Origin: an uncultured Desulfatiglans sp.
GTDB lineage: Bacteria; Desulfobacterota; DSM-4660; Desulfatiglandales; Desulfatiglandaceae
Assembly: GCA_900498135.1 (NCBI GenBank)
Contig: LR026961.1
Span: 4,737,106 to 4,801,105 of the forward strand
DNA length: 64,000 bases
Direction of reading: 5' to 3'
Part shown: positions 26,611-34,358 of the stretch, in pieces
Layout of the letters: every line of letters begins with the position of its first letter
Position numbering within the stretch: the stretch's first letter is position 1
The notes under the pieces: model-generated
The model's database searches: none
Seen by the model: the letters and a program-made list of their open reading frames with translations, nothing else
Told to the model about the DNA's origin: nothing
Program-made: the position numbers and the translations under genes

Positions 26611-26997
26611 TTAAAGCGAGATGACGGTGGCCCCGGTGGCCAACTCAAAAAGGAGCGTAGCAGGAGCCATGCTCACCCCCTCCAGCAGATCTTCGGCCGA
26701 TATCTGCCTGGACTGGGCGCAGGGCGCGCACGCATAAATGGGCACCTCGAAATCCTGCAGATAGGCGACGATATCGTCGGCTACATCGCCCGTAGGCGCC
26801 CGCAGATGATCCATGATGCCCTTTCTGGCAAGGTAGACCGCCTCATCCATGAGGAATACCGAGACCTGCTTCCCCATCTTGTGGGCCACCTGGGCCAGGT
26901 GCAACGCCCGCACAGAGCGATTTGGGTTATTTGTTCCGCACGCCAGGGTAATCAGGACCCGGTCCGCCTTGCCTTCACCAATCGTCTCTTTACCCAT
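26611..26997 (-). CDS. DsrE/DsrF-like family protein
   Basis: 128 residues from the ATG at 26997 after AGAGAGGAATTCT; an upstream in-frame start at 27033 is less likely. The fold is indicated by VLITLACGTNNPNRSVRALHLAQVAHKMGKQVSVFLMDEAVYLARKG and the later IYACAPCAQSRQI, where two Cys in C-A-P-C sit at the position of the sulfur-carrying Cys of DsrE/TusD relatives. Members relay sulfur or act in unknown redox roles. It lies 136 bp downstream of the start region of the porin gene on the same strand. Confidence 0.85.
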   Translation of the reverse strand: MGKETIGEGKADRVLITLACGTNNPNRSVRALHLAQVAHKMGKQVSVFLMDEAVYLARKGIMDHLRAPTGDVADDIVAYLQDFEVPIYACAPCAQSRQISAEDLLEGVSMAPATLLFELATGATVISL

Positions 26998-27944
26998 AGA
27001 ATTCCTCTCTCGATCTGTCTCCAAATTGAGCACTCCCCGTAAAGGCCCCGTTCAGACGTTCCTACGTTCATCCTCCATCATCAGTGAAGAAATCTCTTAA
27101 ATGCAGGTTCATGGGAGATTCGTTTCCATCCGGAAATGGGCTTTTTGGCCGATCTCGGCGTCAATCTGCGCGTTTGCTTGTGCGGCAATCTACAGGCCGC
27201 CTCAGCGCAAACGCTTGATTTCATCGATATTGACCAAACCGGGAACCCGCCCCGCAGGGGTGGGATTGAGCACGCGCAGCGTGTGAAGAAAATTCCTCAT
27301 TTCCGGATTGGAAACCGGGTTCTACCGGGAAATCATTTCCGGGTGAGAACACGTTAGAAAGGAGCTGGAGCAAGATAGATGCCGTGCACAAGAAAATTTT
27401 CGGACTGGATACCGAGATAAATGAAAGATAGGCTAACAAGCTGTTGAAACATAATTTTTCATGAAGCAGTCTGATTTTGTCCATTGTGCTTCAATCTAAA
27501 ATTGTCAAAAAATTAATTATACATATGTTTACTTTTTAACACTTGTTGATGATTTGCGCTCATAAAAGTAAACAAGAAATACATCTTGTTCCCGTCCAAA
27601 AGTGGCCTTTTAGTGGATTTCGACGTGAAAAGGCGCCCCGCCTATGCTGCGGTTTCCGGATAGTCACCACATAAACGCCTGTTTTTCTCGATATGAGCAG
27701 ACCGACACACGCTGCGAAGGTGTGGAACCGAGCAGCAGGATCTTGTTCTGGCGCTGACGGGGGAGAGTTTCGCACACAGTAGAAAGGTGCCCTGCTCAGG
27801 GGCCGGTCTTGCGGCCAGACCCCCATGCAGGTCGGTCGGCGGGGAAACGGACGGGATCAAACAGAGATAAACTGAAAAATCAACATGATATCCTCAGGCA
27901 TCTAGTCGCCGTATTCCGATCATTCATCATTTTCGAATAAATCA
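26998..27944. other. Non-coding interval with repeat copy B and an AT-rich stretch
   Basis: Holds repeat copy B (27122-27315) and its end-to-end remnant (27317-27350), then an AT-rich stretch near 27430-27600 that contrasts with the GC-rich surroundings. In it GTTTACTTTT (27527-27536) is inverted as AAAAGTAAAC (27564-27573). No credible gene is visible. Confidence 0.6.
27122..27315 (+). mobile_element. MITE-like dispersed repeat, copy B (near-complete, 194 bp)
   Basis: Begins GTTTCCATCCGGAAATGG and ends CATTTCCGGATTGGAAAC, the same inverted ends as the other copies, with the shared interior (CTCGGCGTCAATCTGCGCG, GGGAACCCGCCCCGCAGGG). The internal palindrome has one decayed arm (GGCAATCT against AGGCCGCC). 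Followed at 27317-27350 by two ends fused head to head with no interior. It lies 125 bp upstream of the DsrE-like gene. Confidence 0.85.
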
Positions 27945-29014: not shown

Positions 29015-30703
29015 TTATTTTTCCGTCTTCGCAGGTCTCACCATCAAGAAAGACCAGAGGTTGCCGACTCCACCCGGCTGAGGCACCCATCCCGTCAACC
29101 GGTCAATCCGTACTGCATCGATCTTCTTCTTGGAATAAAGCGGGATATACGGCAATTCCTTTGCGATCAGCCGCTGCATCCCGACCACGTGTTCTTTCCT
29201 TTTCAACGGATCGACTTCCCTTTGCGCCGATTCCGCCAGGCGATCGAATTCGGCGTTCTTGAAGCCCGGGTAGTTCTTACCCCCCAGCCGGGCCTCGCGG
29301 CTGTGGAAGAAGGTATTCAGATAGGCCGGCTCGTCGGAGAGGTTGGTCCACCCCATCAGGTAGACGTCGAATTCACCGGCGGAAAGGGCCTTCAAGAGAT
29401 CCTGCAGTGCCAGCATCCGGATTGTGACCTGAACTCCCAGCCGGGCCAGCCATTTCTTCAGCAGCAGAGCCGCCGCGAACCGGTCGGGGCGGCAGCCCGC
29501 CGGAGTCGTCAGCAGTTCCATCGGAGGCATCTTGTCTCCCGTCGGCAGCACCAGCGAATTCTTCTCCCAGGTATAACCCGCCTTCCGAAGCGATTCCCTG
29601 GCCGCATCCAGCCGTGCGTCATCATCGGCGAGGCCGTCACCCGGCAGTTGCAGCTGCGCATCGCACCAAAAGGCATTGTGCGGCGGGATGACGCTCCTTG
29701 CAGGCGCGACATCCCCCGCGAACGCTTTGTCGATCATGGCCTCCCGATTGATCAGTGCAGCCACAGCCTGCCGAAAAACACGGTCATGGTATGGGGAGCG
29801 CCGCAGATTGAAACCCAGATAATCATACCCCCTGCGGTCGGTACGGAAGAACTGAAGCCCCGGTTCGTTCTTCAGTTCCTCTACAGATTCTTCGCAGACA
29901 TCCCCGGCATAAAAGTCGATTTCACCATTCTTCAAAGCCGCGAGCGCCTCCCCGACGTTCCGGTAAACATGGAAAACCACCCAGTCGACATAGGGGCCGA
30001 CCTGCATCCCCGCAATATCTTCCCCCTGTGCAAAGAAGTGTGGATTGCGCTTCATCAACACGAAATCGTGCGAGGGATCGTTCACGATGCTGAAGGGACC
30101 GCTGCTCGGCACCCTGTCCGGCTTCAAACCGGTCAAACGCCGGGCGGCATTCTCCGTTCCCTCCAACGGCTGGATCAACGGCGCCCACGCCTTCTTCTGC
30201 AGGAACGGCGTCAAGAGGGTCTCGTTGAAAAAGGCGGCGCTGGGCTCCTTGAGGATAAACCGGATCGTACGCGGATCGAGCGCCTCCACGCGCTCCACCA
30301 TCTGCCAGTGCTCCACGTGACCGGGAACATTGAATCGTCGGATCACCTCCCAGGTATAGAGCAGGTCGTCACTCGAGATCGGGGTGCCGTCATCCCAGTG
30401 CGCCTCCTTGAGCCTGACCGTTACGATGAGGCCTTTTGGATCGGATTCCGGCTTCCGTTCCGCAAGCCAGGGAAGAACCGAGCCGTCGCGGGGGTCTCTG
30501 ATATATAGCGGCATGTGGATCAGCCGCAGGACTCTCCTTGACCAGACGTCGGTCGCCCCCAGGAAATTCATGGACTTAGGACCGCTCAGAACACCGACGT
30601 GCAGGGATTCCCCCTTGGGCGATTCCCCGGCCTCCGCCGGTTTCAATATCCCGGCCCACAACGCGACGACTGCCGTAAGAATCATGCATGTGAGCTTTTT
30701 CAT
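29015..30703 (-). CDS. ABC transporter substrate-binding protein, family 5 (peptide/nickel/oligopeptide type), orphan
   Basis: 562 residues with a signal peptide ending near LKPAEAG. Family 5 features are clear: SLHVGVLSGPKSMNFLGATD at the start, VRLKEAHWDDGTPISSDDLLYTWEVI (about 97-122), then GFNLRR-type core and the C-terminal EHVVGMQRLIAKELPYIPLYSKKKID. It binds a peptide, metal-chelate or similar in the periplasm. No permease or ATPase genes are adjacent, so its partner is elsewhere or it acts with another system. It starts 45 bp after the octaheme cytochrome gene and is probably cotranscribed. Confidence 0.9.
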   Translation of the reverse strand: MKKLTCMILTAVVALWAGILKPAEAGESPKGESLHVGVLSGPKSMNFLGATDVWSRRVLRLIHMPLYIRDPRDGSVLPWLAERKPESDPKGLIVTVRLKEAHWDDGTPISSDDLLYTWEVIRRFNVPGHVEHWQMVERVEALDPRTIRFILKEPSAAFFNETLLTPFLQKKAWAPLIQPLEGTENAARRLTGLKPDRVPSSGPFSIVNDPSHDFVLMKRNPHFFAQGEDIAGMQVGPYVDWVVFHVYRNVGEALAALKNGEIDFYAGDVCEESVEELKNEPGLQFFRTDRRGYDYLGFNLRRSPYHDRVFRQAVAALINREAMIDKAFAGDVAPARSVIPPHNAFWCDAQLQLPGDGLADDDARLDAARESLRKAGYTWEKNSLVLPTGDKMPPMELLTTPAGCRPDRFAAALLLKKWLARLGVQVTIRMLALQDLLKALSAGEFDVYLMGWTNLSDEPAYLNTFFHSREARLGGKNYPGFKNAEFDRLAESAQREVDPLKRKEHVVGMQRLIAKELPYIPLYSKKKIDAVRIDRLTGWVPQPGGVGNLWSFLMVRPAKTEK

Positions 30704-30748: not shown

Positions 30749-32170
30749 TCATGGACCTTTCCGCTCCTTCGGGCTATCAGAACCGGGGCCGAATCGCCCG
30801 CCCGCAGCAGCGGGATCTTCCGGGTATCCAAGAGCCTCGAAGTCCATCAAAGCCTTTGCACCGTGGCAGTCCATGCATCCCAGCGCCTGCTCCTTGGGGA
30901 CCACCCCATGGTTCAAGCGCCAATGCATGACGGTCGTCACGAAGATAGACTTTCCGCTGTAAGGCAGTTCCGCCTCTTTCATCCCCGACCGGATGGCCCT
31001 TTCCCAATCGAAGTGCTCCCAGTACCCCCCCCACAACTTCGGAATGAGCAGGTACTGGAAGGTCGCGTCGGCGGGCTGAACGCCCGTGTGGATCTTGAAA
31101 GGGGTGATCTTCGCCTTGGGATCCTGGATGCCCCCAGCCGGAGGGTTGAGGTACGTCGTTCCGGTCACATCGACCCGCTCCCCCATGCGGTACCGCTCGT
31201 GTCGGCCGTTATACCATGCATAGGCCGGCGCAACGTTCGCCTTCTTGATGAAGAGGCCCTTTTTGCGGTGCTGGGTGGTGATGCAATAGGGCGAGTTCTC
31301 CAGCTCCTTGGTATCCCTTCCTGCAAGGGCCCAGTTCCAGAAAAGCAGCGTCGGCTTGGCCTTCGCAAACTGAGGGATGTGGCAGGTCTCGCAGGCGATG
31401 GCATCACAGTGATCGTTCAGCGTTTTCTGGACCGCGTGGCGGTCGGTGGCATGAGGCCGTTCATCATGGCAATCCGTACAGGACACCCGCCCCTCGCTCA
31501 CGCAGGTGGTCATACTGGCTCCCGCAATACGATGCCCGTTCGTGGTGTGGCAGTCCTGGCAGGCGAAATCCAACCCGCCCATGTGGACATCCAACTCGCG
31601 GGGAGGATCGATGAGAGCCTCGCTCAGGTTGCCGTGCTTGATGGCGTCCCCACCGCCTCCGCAAAAATGACAGGACCCGCAGTTGGCCCGTGTCGGACGC
31701 CCGACACCGCGGGCGATCTTCACCAGGTCGAGCCCTTTTTTTTCATCGCCGCAGCCCGCCGGTGCCTTTTCGTAAGTTCCAGTGCGGTCGTGGCACACCA
31801 GGCAATCCACCCTCGATGGATCCTTGAAATCAAACGTGTTGTCCTTCCAACCGTAACCCACATGACAGCTGGTGCAACTGCACCAGTTCGCAATCGGGGA
31901 TATTCAAAAGTTGTTGATAACTTTTACCTTTCCCAAGGGCTCTTTCGCCTCGCCCTCGAGGTGTGGGTTGGGGCCCTTCCACTGCCAGTGGGCCGTCTGC
32001 ATGACCTCTGACGCAGCCTCCTCGTGGCAGCCGAGGCACGTCCGGGTCACAGAGGGACCGTCCGGGAACGGACCTTCTATGTCCTGATGAGACGAGGCCT
32101 GTGCGCAGACCGCCAAAAGAACACCCGCAACGCCTCCAAAAACCGCGGCCTTGAAAGACAAACTGAACAT
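30749..32170 (-). CDS. Octaheme cytochrome c, tetrathionate-reductase (OTR) family, with predicted selenocysteine in the active site (in-frame TGA)
   Basis: 473 residues if the TGA at 31904-31906 is read as selenocysteine (Sec89). Start ATG at 32170, followed by an export signal (FGGVAGVLLAVCAQA). Eight CxxCH motifs are present: CLGCH, CTSCH, CLVCH, CGSCH, CQDCH, CTDCH, CETCH, CMDCH. The TGA sits in KVINNF-TGA-ISPIANW; in this family a Cys follows N-N-F. CHFCGGGGDAIKHG carries the Lys that replaces His as a ligand of the catalytic heme. With a 25-residue signal removed the Sec is residue 64 and the Lys residue 153, which agree with the Cys64/Lys153 I recall for the Shewanella enzyme. A strong hairpin follows the TGA. 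The enzyme probably reduces a sulfur or nitrogen oxyanion in the periplasm. A sigma-54 promoter lies upstream. Confidence 0.92.
31869..31886 (-). promoter_or_regulatory. Predicted bacterial SECIS element of the octaheme cytochrome gene
   Basis: Starting 17 nt after the TGA, CTGGTGC and GCACCAG form a perfect 7-bp stem around the loop AGTT. The loop has G in its second position and lies about 25 nt beyond the UGA, within the usual 16-37 nt. The upper stem and loop resemble the fdhF SECIS of E. coli (GGTGCA/TGCACC arms). Confidence 0.85.
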
Positions 32171-32972: not shown

Positions 32973-34358
32973 ATGAACGGATTGGATCTGAACAGCCATT
33001 GGAAAACGGTCGTCAGCACCATCCAGGACGGGCTGATGATCGTCGACCGGACGGGAACCATCCGGTTCGTCAACCCTGCCCTAACCAAAATGACCGGTTA
33101 TGCACCGAAGGAAATGATCGGCATGCCCTGTTCCTCGCTCAATTGCGATGTCTGCGAGATTGCGCGGGCCCCGGGACGCGGGTCCTGGTGCGTCCTGTTC
33201 CAGGAGGGCGCCATCCCGCCCCACCGCTGCACCCTGCGCAGAAAAGACGGAACGATGGTTCCGGTCCTGAAAAATGCAGCGCTTCTGAGGGATGCAGAAG
33301 GAGCCGTCATCGGGGCGGTCGAGACACTCACGGACCTGACCGAGCTCAAGCGGCGCGATCTGCAGATTCAGTCCTTTACGCGGGAATTGGCGGATCAGAA
33401 AGGTTTTCAGGGGATCCTGGGGGTCTCGGTGCGAATGCAGAAGGTCTTCGATCTCCTGGCAAACGCCGCGAGCTCCGATGCGCCGGTCCTGATCCTCGGT
33501 GAAAGCGGCACGGGGAAGGAACTCGCAGCGAGGGCCATCCACCGCCTGGGGCCGCGGCGTGACAAACCATTCATCAAGGTCAACTGCGCCGCGCTGAACG
33601 AGGCCCTTCTCGAAAGCGAGCTGTTCGGGCACGTACGAGGCGCCTTCACGGGGGCCTACCGCGACCGGGAAGGCCGCTTCGAAGCCGCCCACGGAGGCGA
33701 CATCTTCCTGGACGAGGTCGGCGATTTGTCTTTTTCGACCCAGGTTAAACTCCTGCGCGTCCTCGAGGAGAAAACCATCGAAAAGGTGGGGGATCAACGG
33801 TCGATCCGAGTCGATGTCCGGATCATTTCGGCCACGAACCGTGAGGTCGCGCAATTGGCTGCGGAAGGCAAAATCCGACAGGATTTTTTTTACCGGATCA
33901 ACGTGATCCCGATCCGCCTGCCTCCCCTTCGCAAGCGCATCGAAGACATCCCGATCCTTGCGGAACACTTTCTCGAGAGGCTGCGGAAAAAAAGCCGAAA
34001 ACCGGTCCAGGGGATCAGCAGCACCGCCCTGGAGTGCCTGATGGACTATTCCTGGCCCGGCAACGTGCGCGAATTGAAAAGCGCCTTCGAGTACGCGTTC
34101 ATTTCCTGCCACGAAACGCTCATCCAGCCCGAACATCTTCCGTCGGAAATCTCAGCCGGGAAGAAGAAGGCCTCTCCACCCGCCACCCCGAAGCGAGGCA
34201 CAAGGAACGATCAGAAGCGGCAACGGCTTCTTGAGGCCCTTCAGGCCGCGGACGGGAACCAGTCCGAGGCCGCACGCATCCTCGGCGTTTCTCGTGTGAC
34301 GGTCTGGAACCGGATCAAGAAATACGGGATCGATCTCGAGAAGAAGGTCTCAGGTTAG
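32973..34358 (+). CDS. Sigma-54-dependent activator with Cys-rich PAS sensor, AAA+ and Fis-type HTH
   Basis: 461 residues. PAS domain about 1-125 with five Cys (53, 58, 61, 73, 86) in the pattern [13 protein letters not shown]...WCVLF, suggesting metal or redox sensing. AAA+ domain 150-385 with Walker A GESGTGKE (176-183) and the RpoN-contact loop GAFTGA (223-228), and Walker [12 protein letters not shown]-terminal Fis-like HTH (about 420-455, [24 protein letters not shown]). It likely switches the divergent octaheme cytochrome operon through the -24/-12 promoter. No histidine kinase is adjacent, so it probably senses directly. Confidence 0.93.

Follow-up and report, generated by a model that had tools for sequence, protein, structure and literature searches.

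How is a cytochrome gene to be read when a stop codon stands inside its frame? Such a gene lies in the window, which is the whole 64,000-nucleotide stretch analysed here, taken from a genome that is a single contig of 4.80 Mb. An earlier note, made from the letters alone, took its one in-frame TGA for a selenocysteine (Sec) codon in a cytochrome c of the octaheme tetrathionate reductase (OTR) family. The features discussed below are collected in Table 1.

The coding strand, on which the earlier note was silent, is the minus strand, so the gene runs from 32170 to 30749. With TGA translated as Sec, the frame gives 473 residues, as had been claimed, and U89 is its only inner TGA. The terminal stop is also TGA (30749-30751). 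Residue 89 stands in the context INNF-U-ISPIANWCSCTSCH. Membership of the family follows from a score of 522.8 bits against the NCBIfam profile TIGR04315, whose cut-off is 375. The N-terminus is signal-like, and all eight CxxCH heme motifs that the note had described can be read in the translation. Together with a putative axial lysine outside these motifs, they give the predicted protein the make-up of an octaheme cytochrome.

Table 1. Positions of the Sec gene, its parts and its neighbours in the window.
Feature	Position	Strand	Basis
OTR-family cytochrome c gene, 473 residues with U89	30749..32170	-	translation and NCBIfam profile
In-frame TGA, residue 89, predicted selenocysteine	31904..31906	-	aligned with Cys64 of Shewanella OTR 1sp3
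Predicted bacterial SECIS hairpin CUGGUGC-AGUU-GCACCAG, 7 bp (loop 31876-31879)	31869..31886	-	fold, relatives
Cys97 codon TGC in the hairpin's 5' arm, two residues ahead of the heme II motif	31880..31882	-	alignment, hairpin
Second CxxCH of the protein (heme II), C99-T-S-C-H103	31862..31876	-	translation, 1sp3 alignment
Cys140 codon, present only in forms with Cys97	31751..31753	-	alignment
Codon of Lys178, aligned with Lys153 of Shewanella OTR	31637..31639	-	1sp3 alignment
Family 5 extracellular solute-binding protein, next gene, 45-bp gap	29015..30703	-	SBP_bac_5, 206 bits
PAS, sigma-54 activator and Fis-type HTH regulator, divergent, with Cys-rich PAS region	32973..34358	+	neighbour analysis

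The only solved relative found is the OTR of Shewanella oneidensis (PDB 1sp3), which matches residues 26-454 with 445.7 bits. Its Cys64 falls on Sec89, so the TGA does sit at the cysteine that follows N-N-F, and its Lys153 falls on Lys178, the lysine said to be preserved after the TGA. Lys153 presumably serves as the axial lysine of the active-site heme. The Shewanella enzyme differs in having Cys for Sec, and also Pro72 and an Ala where the window's protein has Cys97 and Cys140. Since it has Cys, there is no UGA to decode. Sec89 lies ten residues upstream of the CxxCH of heme II. A passage of PMC4484225 names this heme, counted in motif order, as the catalytic one of Shewanella OTR, and a passage of PMC12285233 gives the active-site heme of that enzyme a lysine ligand although every motif is CxxCH. 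An AF2 model built on alignment A1 was set aside; its mean pLDDT is 56, and most of residues 1-231 fall below 50, which may reflect the truncation of 14 of the 25 alignment rows.

The same genome has a second OTR gene, outside the window (L035, C1:651317-652657). It is a Cys form with Pro97 and is adjoined by a cytochrome b561-type gene (blast cluster). These two genes are the OTR matches of the genome at E 1e-60 or better.

Relatives were gathered in a class search of 85 genomes, in a species-level scan with one genome per GTDB species (the best 80 of 96 relatives being retained as loci) and in an evenly drawn phylum sample of 395 genomes. In this sample 69 genomes have a match. It gave 78 matches, of which 73 were read; the five unread ones are all listed without an inner stop. 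Distinct rows from all searches were joined, with the window's gene and 1sp3, into a set of 134 rows. This set leaves out the non-Sec loci L135, L140, L142, L143, L145, L153, L154, L191, L192, L194 and L195, as well as 16 of the loci L130-L195 that have a stretch identical to an included row. Loci L033 and L107, which do not cover the column, and five near-identical duplicates were dropped before the counts, and L037 was removed from the trees as a long branch.

The column of residue 89 holds TGA in 60 of the 134 rows, Cys in 71, and Gly, Thr or Leu in one row each. The earlier note had asked whether relatives have Cys there throughout: 71 of the 74 non-Sec rows do, and the other three do not. 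These three (L025 with Gly, L026 with Thr, L028 with Leu) stand in the same region of the tree, so Cys or Sec can apparently be lost there. Lys178 is retained in all 60 Sec forms and in 73 of the 74 others. The phylum sample has 30 genes with TGA at the column and 43 without, and the 30 have no other stop before the gene end. It has Lys178 in 30/30 Sec forms and in 36/36 of the non-Sec rows first read. The remaining seven of the 43 were read from sequence stretches; they have Cys at the column and no Cys97, and two of them have Ala140. Bacterial selenoproteins are recognised by an in-frame UGA that falls on the Cys of homologues and is conserved in relatives, and this is the pattern found. Candidate pyrrolysine codons or extra inner stops in L134, L136, L140, L148 and L152 were rejected, as these stops are terminal or lie upstream of the gene.

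Some relatives are long proteins with the OTR domain at the C-terminal end (L022, L023, L024, L025 and L027). Their column holds Sec in L022 and L024, Cys in L023 and L027, and Gly in L025. In L022, an NrfD-like membrane part and extra hemes are joined to the Sec OTR (Pfam).

Could the TGA be a true stop, left by a pseudogene or a sequencing error, or followed by a translation restart? Fourteen of 24 database rows, near relatives partly chosen for shortness, do start one to three residues past the TGA. However, the next codon in the window's gene is ATA, which is no usual start, and a restart past the TGA would cost the protein its signal peptide and heme I. The same codon is TGA, with the frame open on both sides, in 30 of the 73 phylum matches read, and the eight heme motifs are retained in the window's gene. 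This bears out the argument that the note had made against a pseudogene, and a true stop is very improbable.

The genes needed for decoding are present. The tRNA-Sec scores 71.7 bits against a gathering score of 47, and ARAGORN calls it tRNA-SeC with anticodon tca. The matches for selA (624.9 bits, cut-off 267.9), selB (386.8, cut-off 242.25) and selD (369.4, cut-off 125) complete the set of selA, selB, selC and selD for which a check had been proposed, each above its cut-off. The selD gene itself (L119, G000:C1:3059355-3060272) has one in-frame TGA, and so has each of three FdhA-family matches (L122, L123, L126), two of which are above cut-off.

A reassigned or leaky UGA, with Trp or another residue inserted, is scarcely credible. 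Nothing in this analysis was found to support it. The same gene terminates with TGA, the column is Cys in nearly all non-Sec rows, and the genome has the full Sec machinery.

Among the relatives, a tRNA-Sec of at least 59 bits occurs in 43 of the 48 genomes with a Sec form, compared with 27 of the 42 genomes with other forms. Sec forms thus occur in Sec-decoding genomes, yet many Cys forms do too. Within the 42 genomes without a Sec form, none of the seven Vibrio genomes has a match of at least 59 bits. The five Sec-form genomes without such a match are G058, an assembly of 810 contigs, and the MAGs G086, G087, G091 and G115. Locus L020 of G058 does not differ from the NaphS2 locus L043 in any of the 200 residues compared, and G058 is probably NaphS2, a cultured strain. 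The window's genome probably belongs to the same family, of which G058 is a member.

The next question is what would direct Sec to this codon. According to passages of PMC13188914, a bacterial SECIS hairpin stands 16-37 nt after the UGA and has G in the first two loop positions, and a GG or GU loop is “mostly” preferred. The window's hairpin starts 17 nt past the TGA, and its loop, AGUU, at a spacing of 24 nt, agrees with these rules. The 7-bp hairpin with a G-containing loop at the proper distance is therefore as the earlier note described it. An Rfam scan at the hairpin gave no match to a SECIS family. When the next 20 codons of the window's gene are recoded synonymously, 123 of 300 versions satisfy loose SECIS rules and 21 of 300 are equally stable; the fold z-score of a 61-nt stretch is -1.48. 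Taken singly, then, the hairpin of this gene is not clearly above chance.

Across the relatives, the hairpin goes, to judge from the aligned genes, far beyond chance. All 60 Sec forms have a register with a GG or GU loop just past the TGA, fully paired in 55, and three types can be told apart. Type 1 (54 rows) is CUGGUGC-AG[G/U]U-GCACCAG, with the loop 24 nt past the UGA. Its seven pairs are complete in 51 rows, while one row has six and two have five; the loop is AGGU in 44 and AGUU in 10. Type 2 (L061, L174, L184 and L190) is GCAACGA-GGC-UCGUUGC, with 7/7 pairs and the loop 20 nt past the UGA, identical in sequence across its four rows. Type 3 (L022 and L024) is GCAACUG-GUC-CAGGUGC, with 6/7 pairs and the loop GUC. 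A type 1 register with six or more pairs is found in none of 39 non-Sec genes. The rules of PMC13188914 are satisfied in 45 of 48 TGA rows (44 at spacing 24; the three that fail are L022, L024 and L046), compared with 9 of 46 non-TGA rows, none of them at 24.

Codon choice in type 1 follows the same pattern. Arg98 is AGG in 36/36 rows, a codon that makes up 17% of Arg elsewhere in the same genes, and Ser98 is AGT in 10/10, against 11% elsewhere in the same genes. Covariation is also seen: where Asn95 is AAT it is paired with Lys101 as AAA (6/6 rows), which keeps the outer pair as U-A. The window's hairpin is very probably the SECIS of the Sec codon. Because the TGA column recurs, a GG/GU hairpin is present in all 60 Sec forms and the Sec genes are there, selenocysteine at residue 89 is, as a sequence-based prediction, nearly certain.

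A further feature of the Sec forms is found not at the Sec codon but within the hairpin, at residue 97. The 74 non-Sec rows have Pro here in 61, a gap in six, Ala in three, Ser in two, and Val and Asp in one each, so that 13 of them do without Pro97 with no Sec involved. The 60 Sec rows have Cys in 54, Ala in four and Ser in two, and never Pro. Residue 140 behaves in a similar way. It is Cys in 54 Sec rows and Ala in six, and among the non-Sec rows it is Ala in 66 and Ser in eight. All 54 rows with Cys97 have Cys140, and 0/80 of the remaining rows do. One of the two seeds of the species scan, NWC[RS]CT[SK]C, itself contains Cys97, which biases the Cys97 counts of that scan, and a recount was therefore made on the evenly drawn sample. 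In its 66 rows, Cys140 accompanies Cys97 in 27/27 and is found in 0/39 of the rest; both residues occur in the same 27 of 30 Sec forms and in none of the 36 non-Sec rows.

In type 1 hairpins, residue 97 is encoded in the upper part of the 5' stem; in types 2 and 3 its codon extends into the loop. When any Pro codon is placed there in silico, type 1 loses its stem, the mean core energy going from -10.5 to about -2 kcal/mol. In types 2 and 3, the loop loses its GG or GU but still starts with G, and the stem remains wholly or mostly paired; with the Pro codon these loops would still pass a looser loop rule. Three replacement residues thus go with three hairpins, and in types 2 and 3 the case depends largely on the preference for GG or GU. 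Since Pro97 is absent from Sec forms and a Pro codon spoils the hairpins, the decoding signal may have altered the protein itself. The G that remains in the loops of types 2 and 3 makes a reading in which the RNA came first slightly weaker. That the SECIS hairpin dictated residue 97 is put at a little under an even chance, and that Cys140 came as a consequence of this is slightly less likely still.

Another model is that Cys97 and Cys140 came first, for catalysis in a Sec-Cys-Cys centre, and that the hairpin merely used their codons. The Cys140 codon lies about 130 nt beyond that of residue 97, outside the hairpin, and yet its Cys occurs in exactly the Cys97 rows, a hint that both thiols are important for the protein. 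They are also found together in two separated parts of the tree. On the other hand, the four Ala97 and two Ser97 Sec rows all have Ala140 and have hairpins of their own, from which a Pro codon removes GG or GU while leaving a G, and Pro97 is kept in 0/60 Sec rows. These Ala97 and Ser97 rows make a purely catalytic cause for Cys97 insufficient. Neither Cys forms with the Cys97-Cys140 pair nor Sec forms with Pro97 occur in the 134 rows. A catalytic origin of the pair, with the hairpin not dictating residue 97, is a serious contender that falls somewhat short of probable. The two residues would probably form a disulfide or resolving pair, or a Sec-Cys-Cys redox site.

The tree shows how often these traits arose. 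A single clade of Sec-Cys97-Cys140 rows is rejected (AU p 2.9e-57, on a careful tree of 95 rows with the trait columns removed). Block A, 17 rows including the window's gene, is far from block B, and Cys forms lie between them. Block B has 29 rows in one clade, and 37 rows in the 134-row tree, where its inner forks are poorly supported. On the quick tree of 134 rows the Sec label changes six times, Cys97 twice and Cys140 twice; Ala97 forms stand in two places. Among independent pairs, Sec goes with non-Pro97 in 4.6/5 and never against it (p 0.06), and Cys97 goes with Cys140 in 2/2 (p 0.5). With two origins only for Cys97 and for Cys140, their linkage rests on two events. As the tree is unrooted, the Sec changes fit gain, loss or transfer alike. 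The full sequence of events, in which a hairpin over the heme II motif repeatedly expelled Pro97 and chose Cys, Ala or Ser by its type, and Cys97 with Cys140 then built a Sec-Cys-Cys site, is a tentative proposal.

The process may be pictured as follows. SelB with Sec-tRNA would bind the mRNA hairpin, so that Sec is inserted at the UGA, and the Sec protein would then be exported and receive its eight hemes. Next to heme II, the selenolate, a stronger nucleophile than a thiolate and ionised to a greater extent, would attack the S-S bond of a polythionate or persulfide. The Se-S adduct would be cleaved by two electrons arriving via the heme chain. Cys97 and Cys140 of the main Sec type would form a probable disulfide, or serve as resolving thiols for Sec. 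The most likely course is that the hairpin displaced the Pro97 of Cys forms and that Cys140 was fixed along with Cys97. That the UGA is read as Sec via the downstream hairpin, with Sec replacing Cys beside the Lys-ligated catalytic heme II, is judged likely, mechanism included. For the reaction, reduction of S-S bonds by Sec acting at heme II is a best guess that may well be wrong.

Alternately, Sec could serve a reaction on nitrite, hydroxylamine, selenite or another oxyanion, or tune heme II as a ligand. Passages of PMC4484225 report that Shewanella OTR reduces nitrite and hydroxylamine besides tetrathionate. Some gene neighbourhoods lean instead to sulfur or thiol redox, which is no proof: thioredoxin genes lie near some Sec genes (L044 by Pfam; L039, L046, L064, L077 and L097 by blast cluster), and CoA-disulfide-reductase-like genes near others (L042 by NCBIfam, below cut-off; L041, L046 and L077 by blast cluster). 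A function other than S-S reduction is a possibility to be taken seriously, without being the expected one.

Neighbouring frames were called mechanically, and cluster 1, which mixes sigma-54 regulators with antisense OTR frames, was not counted. In four other genomes (L019/L040, L020/L043, L021/L042 and L041), relatives of the window's solute-binding protein are encoded immediately upstream of the Sec gene. The divergent PAS-sigma-54 protein is a possible regulator of the Sec gene. A search for the sigma-54 promoter pattern gave no match near the Sec gene, and the total of matches was below chance. L064 has a similar Cys-rich PAS-sigma-54 regulator upstream of its Sec gene. The third gene downstream of the window's Sec gene (26611-27033, minus strand) encodes a DsrE/DsrF-like protein (51 bits), possibly a sulfur carrier.

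The 29 loci of block B have a different arrangement. A cytochrome b561-type gene follows the Sec gene in 22 of them and an ArsR-type regulator precedes it in 12, both assignments coming from Pfam on one representative of each. Small ArsR-type HTH proteins are encoded about 290-770 nt upstream of the UGA in L078, L080, L082 and nine further block B loci, and the stretch ASFCGIFSS occurs in those of L078 and L104. The ArsR-type protein of block B may sense sulfur or a metal and so control the Sec gene. The 22 loci resemble the OTR of Thermosulfurimonas dismutans, for which passages of PMC4911364 describe a nearby cytochrome b subunit; “selen” has no occurrence in the text of that paper. The window's gene differs from it, having no cytochrome b neighbour but the solute-binding protein and the sigma-54 regulator instead.

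Is the Sec form itself new? The earlier note knew of no described one, and here it must be corrected. A table in a 2026 review, PMC13188914, lists “Tetrathionate reductase family octaheme c-type cytochrome” under TIGR04315, as GenBank annotated, with the accession WP_331457571.1. A Sec form of the family is therefore already on record there. The entry is a single accession of the same family annotated with Sec, with the Sec motif given as not available and with no description of SECIS, site or evolution; “octaheme” and “tetrathionate” do not occur again in the review text. The accessible parts of the open-licence literature yielded no description of the Sec form's SECIS, site, partners or repeated origin. 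What is new here is the relation of residue 97 to the hairpin and the link with Cys140 in Sec forms. Another multiheme c-type cytochrome with a predicted Sec is the ExtKL selenoprotein of Geobacter (NF040886), treated in passages of PMC5877670 and PMC13188914; it belongs to a separate cytochrome family.

Gene finders may cut genes of this kind, as the aligned short database relatives start just past the UGA. TGA forms occur in Desulfocicer vacuolatum DSM 3385 (L050), Thermodesulfatator autotrophicus (L083) and delta proteobacterium NaphS2 (L043). A tRNA-Sec is present in the genomes of the first two (G093 and G101). All three are taken to be cultured strains, which would make the Sec form experimentally testable. 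If the reading is true, selenium would here be paired with a heme that carries out multi-electron chemistry, an uncommon combination in catalysis. If the hairpin dictated residue 97, the family would show plainly how an RNA signal can shape the active site of an enzyme; such remodelling by a decoding signal would then have happened repeatedly, in different branches of the family.
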